A stretch of 64,000 nt of DNA from Qipengyuania sphaerica (lineage in GTDB: Bacteria; Pseudomonadota; Alphaproteobacteria; Sphingomonadales; Sphingomonadaceae), in contig NZ_JAIGNR010000004.1 of NCBI RefSeq assembly GCF_019711595.1, positions 62,001 to 126,000 on the forward strand, written 5' to 3'. This document shows, one piece after another, positions 31,348-33,432 of the stretch; positions within the stretch are counted from its first letter, which is position 1; the number at the start of each line of letters is the position of its first letter. Position numbers and translations under genes: made by a program. The notes below the pieces were generated by a model. That model did no database searches. It worked only from the letters and a program-made list of their open reading frames with translations, and was not told where the DNA came from.

Positions 31348-31920
31348 ATGAAAGCCTCCCGCATCGTCATTGCCCGTGTCCTGCTGCTCTCCGGCGTCGC
31401 CACCGTCGCCGGGTGCGTTCCCGCACCTGAGAGTACGCCCGCGCCCTCGCCTGCGCCGGTTCAGACCGCCCCTGCCCCCGTGCCGACGCCCACACCCACG
31501 CCCGCTCCGACCCCTCATTTCGAAAGCTGGATGGATGCGCCCGCCACTCCCGGAACCTGGACCTACAAGGCCGATGTCGAGGGAACCACGGCTCGTTTCG
31601 GAGCAGCGAATAGCGAATACCGCTTCACGATCGCCTGCAACCCGCGGGCGCGGAGCATTCAAATGCTGCGCTTTTACCCGGGCATCCGGGCAGACGGACC
31701 GATGACCATCCGCACAGAAACCACGTCTCGCACTCTTTCGGCCACCGGCTCCGGCGGAGGCGGCTCGGGCGAATTGATGGCATCGCTGCAGGCGCGCGAC
31801 CCGCTGCTCGACGCGATGGCGCTCACCAAGGGACGATTCGCTGTGGATACTCCGGATCTGCCGACGCTTTACCTGCCCGCCTGGGCCGAAGTGACGCGGG
31901 TGATCGAGGATTGCCGCTAG
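31348..31920 (+). CDS. Lipoprotein with Pro/Thr-rich linker
   Basis: Encodes 190 residues. The signal ends at ATVAGC (Cys23), so it is lipid-anchored. Residues 25-56 are a Pro/Ala/Thr linker; the globular part has two further Cys residues (TIACNP and the ending EDCR) and a Gly-rich stretch. No family is recognised. It is divergent from tlyA. Confidence 0.75.
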   Translation: MKASRIVIARVLLLSGVATVAGCVPAPESTPAPSPAPVQTAPAPVPTPTPTPAPTPHFESWMDAPATPGTWTYKADVEGTTARFGAANSEYRFTIACNPRARSIQMLRFYPGIRADGPMTIRTETTSRTLSATGSGGGGSGELMASLQARDPLLDAMALTKGRFAVDTPDLPTLYLPAWAEVTRVIEDCR

Positions 31921-31977
31921 GCCGATTCACCGGTCCGCCAGCCGCCTTAGATCGGCCTGCTCCCGCGCAACGAAAAA

Positions 31978-32001
31978 TGGCCCGGAAAATCTTCCGAGCC
32001 A
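31978..32001 (-). terminator. Orphan minus-strand terminator-like hairpin
   Basis: TGGCCCGGAA and TTCCGAGCCA (10 bp, one mismatch, 4-base loop) are flanked by AAAAA on the left, so only minus-strand RNA would carry a U tract. It may simply mark the end of the plus-strand lipoprotein gene, or end an unseen minus-strand RNA that starts in 32002-32137. Confidence 0.45.
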
Positions 32002-32137
32002 CAAATGACAATTCTGACGTGGGAAAACTTTTTTGCAAGCCTTGTTTTGCGTCTCGAAAAGACTCAAATTGAACTCAAGATCAGCGGCGAACGCGGTCTT
32101 GGGGGTCCTTGAAAAGTCCCTCTAGCTCACAAGCGCG

Positions 32138-32151
32138 AAAGGAGGTGATCC
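32138..32151 (+). promoter_or_regulatory. Fourteen-base perfect Shine-Dalgarno sequence
   Basis: AAAGGAGGTGATCC is the full complement of the 3' end of 16S rRNA (GGATCACCTCCTTT). It precedes an ATG at 32153 by one base beyond the core, with AGGAGG about eight bases from the start. Such full-length pairing is rare and would bind 30S subunits very tightly. Confidence 0.8.
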
Positions 32152-32152
32152 G

Positions 32153-32209
32153 ATGTCTCATGGTTCAGCAGAGAGGTCGGCAAGTTTCCGCGCGAGGTAC
32201 TATCGGTAA
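32153..32209 (+). CDS. 18-residue mini-ORF upstream of ilvE
   Basis: The ATG follows the 14-base perfect Shine-Dalgarno sequence and opens an 18-codon frame, MSHGSAERSASFRARYYR, ending in TAA. It is basic and rich in Ser and Arg, with no Ile, Leu or Val, so it is not a branched-chain amino acid attenuator peptide. A hairpin (32234-32252) and a terminator (32261-32304) follow, and ilvE starts at 32353. It may be a leader peptide, a free small protein, or an open frame in a regulatory RNA. I do not recognise it. Confidence 0.55.
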   Translation: MSHGSAERSASFRARYYR

Positions 32210-32233
32210 TTCCCTATCGTTAGAGACTTCGTG

Positions 32234-32252
32234 AGCGGCACTTCCCGCCGCT
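32234..32252 (+). ncRNA. Small hairpin between mini-ORF and terminator
   Basis: AGCGGC (32234-32239) and GCCGCT (32247-32252) pair around ACTTCCC. Together with the mini-ORF and terminator it suggests a short structured RNA of about 170 bases ending at 32304. Confidence 0.4.
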
Positions 32253-32260
32253 GACCATGC

Positions 32261-32304
32261 GAAGGGCAGCTTCTCCTCCGGGCGAAGCTGCCCTTCTCAT
32301 TTTG
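32261..32304 (+). terminator. Strong terminator with CCTCC in its loop
   Basis: GAAGGGCAGCTTC (32261-32273) and GAAGCTGCCCTTC (32284-32296) form a perfect 13-bp stem followed by TCATTTTG. The 10-base loop contains TCCTCC (32274-32279), which could pair with the GGAGG at 32141-32145. It ends the mini-ORF transcript 48 bases before ilvE. Confidence 0.8.
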
Positions 32305-32352
32305 TCGTGTCCGCCCTTGCCCTAAAACGCGCGCTTCTCTAACCGCGCGGGC

Positions 32353-33432
32353 ATGGAATTCGAGCATTCTCCCCATCCCGCCCCTACGCCCGCCGACAAG
32401 CGCGACGAAGCGTTGAAGGACCCCGGCTTCGGCAAGCTTTTCACCGACCACATGGTCGTCATCGAATACGACGCCGACAAGGGCGGCTGGCACAAGGCGA
32501 CGCTCGGCCCGCGCGAGGCGATCAGTCTCGATCCGGCAGCGGCCGTGCTGCATTACGCCCAGGAAATCTTCGAGGGGATGAAGGCCTATAAGCAGGGCGA
32601 CGACAGGCTCGCCCTCTTCCGCCCCGAACAGAACGCGCGCCGCTTCAATGAAAGCGCGAAGCGCATGGCGATGCCCGAACTGCCCGAGGAGCTGTTCCTC
32701 GAATCCATCCGCCAGTTGGTCGCAGCCGACCGTGACTGGGTGCCCTCCGGCCCCGACGGCTCGCTCTACCTGCGCCCTTTCATGTTCGCCTCCGAAGCCT
32801 TTCTCGGCGTGCGTCCGGCGCGGCAGTATAAATATATCCTCATCGCTTCGCCCGTCGGCCCCTATTTCAAGGGCGGCGCGAAGCCGGTGAAAATATGGGT
32901 CAGCCGCAATTATACCCGCGCCGCCCCTGGCGGCACCGGTGCGGCCAAGACCGGCGGCAATTACGCCGCCAGCCTCGTCCCGCAGGCCGAGGGGATCGAG
33001 CACGGCTGCGACCAGGTCGTCTTCCTCGATGCGGTCGAGAAGAAGTGGATCGAGGAGCTGGGCGGAATGAACCTGTTCTTCGTTTTCGACGACGGCACGG
33101 TGATCACTCCGCCGCTGACCGGCACCATCCTTCCCGGCATCACCCGCGACAGCCTCATCCAGCTCCTGCGCGAAGAAGGGCTGGAGGTGCGTGAGGAACC
33201 CTACAGTATCGACCAGTGGCGCGCCGATGCGACCGAGGGCCGCCTGCTCGAGACGATGGCTTGCGGCACGGCGGCGGTTGTCACGCCGGTTGGCACCGTG
33301 CTCGGCCCCGATGGCGAATTTACCATCGGCAGTGGCGGCACCGGCCAGATGACCAACAAGGTCCGCGAAAAGCTGGTCGGGATCCAGAAGGGCGCAGTCG
33401 ACGACACCCACGGCTGGACGATGAAGCTTTAA
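32353..33432 (+). CDS. ilvE: Branched-chain amino acid aminotransferase
   Basis: Encodes 359 residues, a fold-type IV PLP enzyme of the larger (about 360-residue) BCAT class. It does the last step of Ile, Leu and Val synthesis and the first of their breakdown. LHYAQEIFEGMKAYKQGD, the KTGGNYAASL segment with the PLP Lys, and MACGTAAVVTPVG are typical. ATG 32353 starts the family N-terminus. It ends in a 4-base convergent overlap with the LysR gene. Confidence 0.94.
   Translation: MEFEHSPHPAPTPADKRDEALKDPGFGKLFTDHMVVIEYDADKGGWHKATLGPREAISLDPAAAVLHYAQEIFEGMKAYKQGDDRLALFRPEQNARRFNESAKRMAMPELPEELFLESIRQLVAADRDWVPSGPDGSLYLRPFMFASEAFLGVRPARQYKYILIASPVGPYFKGGAKPVKIWVSRNYTRAAPGGTGAAKTGGNYAASLVPQAEGIEHGCDQVVFLDAVEKKWIEELGGMNLFFVFDDGTVITPPLTGTILPGITRDSLIQLLREEGLEVREEPYSIDQWRADATEGRLLETMACGTAAVVTPVGTVLGPDGEFTIGSGGTGQMTNKVREKLVGIQKGAVDDTHGWTMKL

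Follow-up and report, generated by a model that had tools for sequence, protein, structure and literature searches.

The DNA analysed here (the window) is a stretch of 64,000 nt from Qipengyuania sphaerica. On its forward strand, upstream of ilvE (start at 32353; Pfam Aminotran_4), lies a short element that opens with a 15-nt Shine-Dalgarno (SD) sequence, GAAAGGAGGTGATCC, at 32137–32151, the complement of the 16S rRNA 3′ end. A preliminary description made from the sequence had reported that AAAGGAGGTGATCC (32138–32151) pairs fully with the 16S 3′ end; this was borne out, and with G32137 included the complementarity reaches 15 nt. The SD is followed by a mini-ORF (32153–32209) with its ATG at 32153–32155, 18 codons (MSHGSAERSASFRARYYR) and a TAA at 32207–32209. 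In the minimum-energy fold, codons 13–18 enter a hairpin, P3 (32190–32233, ends approximate), that holds the stop codon in its loop; in part of P3 both strands vary across the alignment. Sequence and folds further indicate a small hairpin, GCGGC/GCCGC (32235–32239 / 32247–32251), which is partly in competition with the extended form of a long-range helix, S2, described below. The element ends in an intrinsic terminator (32261–32304) with a 13-bp stem (32261–32273 / 32284–32296), loop TCCTCCGGGC and tail TCATTTTG; in the alignment both sides of the stem change while the pairing is retained. What had been said of the sequence itself, namely a frame of 18 codons followed, ahead of ilvE, by a small hairpin and a terminator of 13 bp that has TCCTCC in its loop, thus holds in full. 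Taken as a 195-nt RNA, the element has a more stable predicted fold than all of 200 shuffled sequences (z = −5.1).

Upstream of the SD, a 190-nt alignment of 29 distinct rows from the genus contains a conserved block, CTGACGTGGGAAAACTTTTTT (32014–32034). The genus alignment also keeps TTGTTT (32042–32047) and, 17 nt further on, CAAATT (32065–32070), which we read as putative −35 and −10 elements of a promoter (32042–32070); a scan of 31700–32700 with a sigma-70 consensus gave no site. Two leader hairpins of the genus lie between 32076 and 32125, 5′ of the SD, one of the CCCGG-GUGAAA-CGGG type and the other formed by CAAGATC/GGTCTTG (32076–32082 / 32095–32101). The latter, predicted from folds and found in the genus and near relatives only, keeps 6 or 7 of its 7 pairs in 27 of 30 loci that matched a search expression for it, with some compensated changes.

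The ribosome site stands out in the genome as a whole. GGATCACCTCCTTTC is matched, with up to one mismatch, at just two places in the entire genome, the mini-ORF locus and one other, which we take to be the 16S rRNA 3′ end. Computed pairing with the 16S tail amounts to −28.8 kcal/mol at the SD and to −18.8 kcal/mol, 10 kcal/mol weaker, at the next best site of the window. The SD is also the window's sole site within two mismatches; this count is unremarkable by itself, as 0.40 such sites are expected and 35 of 100 shuffles contain at least one, whereas the exact 15-nt match exceeds chance. In loci retrieved by sequence pattern, SD invariance follows by construction, and codon-2 conservation partly so. 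Since the pattern itself demands an SD, fairer evidence comes from loci found with a covariance model: the exact 15-mer is present in all 30 genus loci taken from the model search, and several matches found by the model without the pattern have a near-perfect SD.

An attenuator of a new kind had been among the roles proposed for this RNA upstream of ilvE. Within the genus ilvE does follow the RNA in 29 of 29 rows, which would suit an ilvE leader, with or without leader-peptide attenuation. However, the distance from SD to ilvE varies between 213 and 542 nt in these rows and reaches 2966 nt elsewhere, and among the other loci of the same type with enough sequence, ilvE lies downstream in 12 of 23 and is missing in 11. 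The mini-ORF peptide lacks Ile, Leu and Val codons throughout its 18 codons, as the preliminary description had correctly stated, and no antiterminator overlapping the terminator stem was seen. An upstream ORF with no Pfam family (31348–31920) is kept better than ilvE, in 29 of 29 genus rows and 24 of 25 other rows of the type. We therefore rejected the ilv leader-peptide attenuator, and consider any leader function for ilvE highly improbable. The product of ORF 31348–31920 is lipoprotein-like, and among sphingomonads the ORF remains adjacent to the RNA also at loci where ilvE does not. In about 15 loci of the Rhodobacteraceae type, the RNA is followed on the plus strand by members of an ORF family that share GPGGQNVNKV, a motif of the ribosome-rescue factor ArfB. 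Neighbouring genes vary from clade to clade, and a terminator-like stem was found in 172 distinct sequences; the RNA is a free-standing unit with its own terminator and changing neighbours. As no downstream gene is common to the loci, action in trans appears likeliest.

Between 30000 and 35000 of the window, the Rfam models gave one match with an E value of up to 1: RF01867 (CC2171, "caulobacter sRNA"), at 32130–32294. The match is full length (positions 1–159 of 159, E = 3.1e-6), although the middle helices fit poorly; the traits of the family that the window RNA presents are the 5′ core, the long-range helix and the 3′ terminator. Its score, 40.7 bits, falls below the curated cut-off of 75, so that the RNA is a diverged relative of RF01867 and not a formal member. 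Of 37 genomes from the genus, that of the window included, 36 have a match to the RF01867 model; so do none of 24 genomes from other families of the order and 61 of 289 genomes of the class, 9 of the 289 above the cut-off. The pattern GAAAGGAGGTGRTCNNRTGTC, with one mismatch allowed, likewise hits 61 of the 289 class genomes. In a draw from the whole phylum the core pattern occurs in 53 of 299 genomes. Counted by hand, 51 of these belong to the 86 Alphaproteobacteria in the draw and 2 to the remaining 213 Pseudomonadota, and a reversed-pattern control also hits 2 of those 213. Within the window's own family it is present in 102 of 119 genomes; with an optional extra base, it is present in 106 of 199 genomes of the family of genome G382. 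Genera named among the matches listed are Sphingomonas, Novosphingobium, Brevundimonas, Paracoccus, Bradyrhizobium, Methylobacterium, Mesorhizobium, Roseococcus and Inquilinus.

These pattern counts are lower bounds, as the pattern misses some members. In 15 genomes devoid of the core pattern, the pattern AAAGGAGGTGNNNNDTG matched 6 genomes at 10 places, nine of them ordinary frames longer than the 100 codons read and one a member with its start one base closer. When weak model matches from the same 15 genomes were scanned for the SD core (10 of 13 loci), four turned out to be members with an inserted SD base (see below); the remaining scanned matches had no SD core. At three loci (L253, L255 and L261) the model match is confined to the terminator end. 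At locus L262 (genome G243), which the pattern missed, the start codon lies one base nearer to the SD. Genomes G072, G632 and G699 hold two or three copies each, those of G072 being of the MSHG type and of a TCATTGTC-like type; multiple copies in some sphingomonads are possible paralogues. The structure tests reported below do not include frames longer than 40 codons (L107, Paenibacillus; L190, Azospirillum); short contig ends were dropped before counting, and near-duplicates were removed from alignments A2 (10 of 44) and A3 (3 of 35).

We then considered whether the mini-ORF is kept as a frame or as a coding sequence. Among the 62 matches listed, the first base of the start codon is A or G, T in three, and never C, which would cost one mismatch just as T does. 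The stop position is fixed as well. Of 45 distinct sequences of the TCATGG type, to which the window RNA belongs, 43 have their stop at codon 19 (26 TAA, 12 TGA, 5 TAG), the two that deviate being L198 and L190, a doubtful Azospirillum record. Codon 19 is likewise the stop in 23 of 25 of the Rhodobacteraceae type (11 TAG, 8 TGA, 4 TAA), and codon 15 in 8 of 8 of the Bradyrhizobium type; TGG occupies the stop position in none of 78 sequences. The sphingomonad alignment is free of gaps inside the frame but has 405 of them downstream. A 15-nt tail complement that occurs nowhere else in the genome, the 16S gene excepted, would suit an RNA that stays untranslated and serves the 16S 3′ end as a decoy or chaperone; the conserved start-codon types and stop position argue against it, and we regard such a role as improbable.

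The peptide drifts. As a measure we used the synonymous share, that is, the fraction of single-base codon differences that are synonymous, compared with its neutral expectation. It is at or below expectation in the genus (0.11; 0.25 expected), the sphingomonads (0.24; 0.26), the CATTGTC type (0.29; 0.28), Bradyrhizobium (0.07; 0.23) and the Rhizobium type (0.18; 0.26), the sisters of the latter giving 0.31 (0.29 expected). Two types lie above expectation, the Rhodobacteraceae type with 0.37 (0.29 expected) and the AGTGA type with 0.38 (0.25 expected), and in these some constraint on the peptide is thus possible. A point against the reading proposed below is that two broad clades, in alignments that are uncertain, often have in-frame gaps of a length not divisible by three; the divisible ones number 67 of 115 in the CATTGTC type and 7 of 44 in the AGTGA type. 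Across clades the peptides have nothing in common beyond the first residues, and not even Ser2 is fixed, given that codon 2 is AAA or CAT in loci found by the model, the pattern having required TC there. A functional peptide, whether a small protein or the toxin-like product suggested earlier, would explain why a frame is kept at all, and the Rhodobacteraceae and AGTGA types remain candidates for one; the synonymous share disfavours it in most clades, that of the window among them, and we hold it to be unlikely as the general explanation. Probably, then, the mini-ORF is kept for its translation, and the peptide itself is not the selected product. The check for conservation in sphingomonads accordingly has a divided outcome, SD, frame and terminator being kept while the peptide is not, and the earlier suggestion of a regulatory RNA looks right.

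Two predicted helices join the translated part of the RNA to other segments. S2 (32159–32259) pairs 32159–32167 (codons 3–5) with 32252–32259; it appears in a consensus fold of 34 sequences, and across clades codons 3–6 covary with the bases immediately 5′ of the terminator. With the terminator located independently of the helix, and with one sequence per cluster, the clusters being taken as independent and their remaining relatedness ignored, each locus's own codons 3–6 pair with that segment better than those of other types do (mean rank 0.191 over 96 clusters, 41 of them below 0.05; KS p = 3.5e-21). Control windows at the start codon, codons 9–12 and codons 12–15 gave mean ranks of 0.53, 0.44 and 0.47, and codons 6–9 gave 0.31; an earlier version of the test that was not anchored on the terminator was weaker (0.304).

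S1 (32150–32180) is predicted in the window to mask the start codon, pairing CCGAUGUC (32150–32157), the end of the SD with the start codon, with GAGGUCGG (32173–32180) inside the frame. To examine S1 across clades, also with one sequence per cluster, we ranked the native combination of the two bases flanking the start within a set of 8 combinations. For segment 50–72 the native combination alone pairs best in 29 of 97 clusters, where about 12 are expected and the reversed control gives 10; windows 21–40, 28–46, 60–90 and 80–110 give 8 to 14 of 97, and 110–140 gives the lowest figure, 5 of 97. CCAG/CUGG, CCTG/CAGG, CCGG/CCGG and CCCG/CGGG are examples of the pairs. Among 44 candidate motifs within the frame, both variable bases are paired in 18, but not in the remaining 26. 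Two reversed controls deviate in the opposite direction (z = +4.0 and +2.6), so the z scale of this test is uncalibrated. The support for S1 from covariation across clades is therefore moderate, and within sphingomonads the bases of both helices are invariant and covariation is uninformative. Together S1 and S2 would form a pseudoknot, because the 5′ strand of S2 sits in the loop of S1. In sphingomonads the S1 partner GGUCGG is able to extend S2 instead, which suggests that the RNA chooses between the two partners.

The preliminary description had also proposed that the RNA holds a strong ribosome site together with its own mask, the TCCTCC of the terminator loop. The general idea finds support in the wider family; the particular mask was rejected, since of 22 distinct terminator hairpins from the genus only 5 contain TCCTCC, at times as part of the stem, and of 147 others none does, and pairing of loop and SD is on average no better than in shuffles. 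In the window's own lineage the likelier mask would be the S1 pairing of CCGAUGUC with GAGGUCGG, a reading based on the fold, as these bases hardly vary within the clade.

Other clades appear to mask the site by other means. In the Rhodobacteraceae type, the stretch that separates the frame from the terminator holds an anti-SD sequence (one sequence per cluster; mean z = −2.16 over 13 clusters, 8 of them at rank ≤0.05); the window's own clade, in contrast, has no enrichment of such a post-stop anti-SD (7 clusters, mean z = −0.17). In the family of genome G382, 24 of 106 matching genomes have one base inserted in the SD, 23 times an A and once a T, as counted by hand (loci L249, L251, L254, L259, L275, L276, L289, L295, L300, L301 and L303–L316). 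In 24 of 24 of these Rhizobiaceae-type loci a CCTTCC-like element begins 7–10 nt past the first base of the stop, while among 31 sister loci without the insertion neither CCTCC nor CCTTCC occurs within 40 nt in 29, and it lies at 27 and 34 in the other two. Among the 23 A-type loci, the best pairing of the SD with the post-stop region ranges from −12.1 to −18.3 kcal/mol, and in 22 of them it starts between −2 and +4 relative to the stop; in 30 loci without insertion the range is −6.0 to −13.2 kcal/mol. At the T-type locus, the partner of GAAAGGAU is AUCCUUUC, which overlaps the stop. The 16S tail is normal in one insertion-type genome, and a search of three more yielded no match to 16S; given the normal tail, the insertion should cost pairing with 16S while internal pairing is kept, and perfect 16S pairing would therefore be dispensable. 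A post-stop anti-SD common to the whole family was rejected, as it is enriched in the Rhodobacteraceae type and present in the Rhizobiaceae insertion type, but not in the window's clade. Compensatory change between the SD/start region and an internal partner is plain in the 24 Rhizobiaceae-type loci and moderate across clades, and the window's clade is near-invariant. Taken together, this suggests a ribosome site that is maskable, by different elements in different clades.

The comparison supports the view that an RNA with an SD, a kept start and stop, a long-range helix and clade-specific masks is conserved across Alphaproteobacteria. Our reading, to which we give an even chance, is that it is a small free-standing mRNA related to RF01867 whose product would be no protein but a ribosome-dependent state of the RNA, self-masking and acting in trans. 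Free of ribosomes, the RNA would fold shut, with part of the SD still exposed as a landing strip. There a 30S subunit would dock, its 16S tail displacing the internal mask, and ribosomes translating up to the fixed stop would keep the RNA open by covering either the pairing partners or, where the RNA is of the Rhizobiaceae type, the anti-SD just past the stop. Given the established size of its footprint, a terminating ribosome would cover the post-stop CCTTCC-like element. Such an RNA would report on ribosome availability, or draw on it, in trans. A bolder form of the proposal, which we put forward tentatively and consider possible though doubtful, is that of a class-wide ribosome sensor working as a natural toehold switch: the 16S tail would invade and displace an internal mimic of itself, ribosomes terminating on a mini-ORF indifferent to its peptide would hold or reset the switch, and the RNA would act in trans on translation capacity.

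The purine-rich 15-mer could instead be a sponge that binds anti-SD small RNAs, translation being incidental. Anti-SD small RNAs do exist in Alphaproteobacteria, as the available parts of two reports describe for SisA–D of alpha-R8 (PMC12559287) and for sRNAs with CCUCCUCCC loops (PMC3927594). A sponge, however, requires neither start-codon spacing, nor a stop kept by three different codons, nor an anti-SD tied to the stop, and we think it rather unlikely. If the translated, self-masking RNA is the correct reading, it would be an RNA kept for being translated and not for its coding content, offering a handle on how free ribosomes are sensed and managed, and RF01867, catalogued as an sRNA family, would be recast as a small mRNA. 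The SD insertion of the Rhizobiaceae type, with its post-stop anti-SD, provides a ready genetic test system.

The closest known counterpart is the RF01867 copy of Mesorhizobium huakuii, MH_s33, which is tabulated with a 215-nt sequenced transcript from RNA-seq (PMC5596092). It shares with the window RNA the core and terminator, a full-length model match and the character of a small intergenic transcript; it is catalogued as an sRNA, and the parts consulted of that report and of the Rfam literature mention neither mini-ORF, nor 16S complement, nor masking. The Rfam 15 paper, in the part available, enters RF01867 with one added covarying pair. Two earlier Caulobacter ncRNAs were reported as translated, their identities being specified in a supplement to the text seen (PMC4117421). 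In the accessible portion of the open-licence literature we found no description of a mini-ORF or 16S complement for the family; an older description is possible. A comparable logic has been demonstrated in cis for the DUF1127 uORF leader of Sinorhizobium meliloti (PMC12218461). According to the portion of that report available, it too has a short translated frame in which the RNA matters rather than the peptide, a ribosome binding site that co-folds with the first codons, and a start codon that lies roughly 30 nt away from the point where transcription starts. It differs from the window RNA in acting in cis on the next gene, in having no intrinsic terminator and in counting 29 codons; the bases directly following its frame, TCCAAGGC, lack the CCTTCC element (PMC12218461, same portion). 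SisA–D and the CCUCCUCCC-loop sRNAs resemble the window RNA, as far as the excerpts describe them, in being small RNAs of the same class that use SD/anti-SD pairing, but they carry the anti-SD, whereas the window RNA carries the SD and a frame (PMC12559287; PMC3927594). Finally, the extended SD of Staphylococcus aureus is likewise a case of pairing beyond the canonical helix; there, in the part of the report consulted, two extra pairs are seen in a native mRNA–ribosome complex (PMC13009471), while for the window RNA a pairing of up to 15 nt is predicted, on a free-standing RNA.
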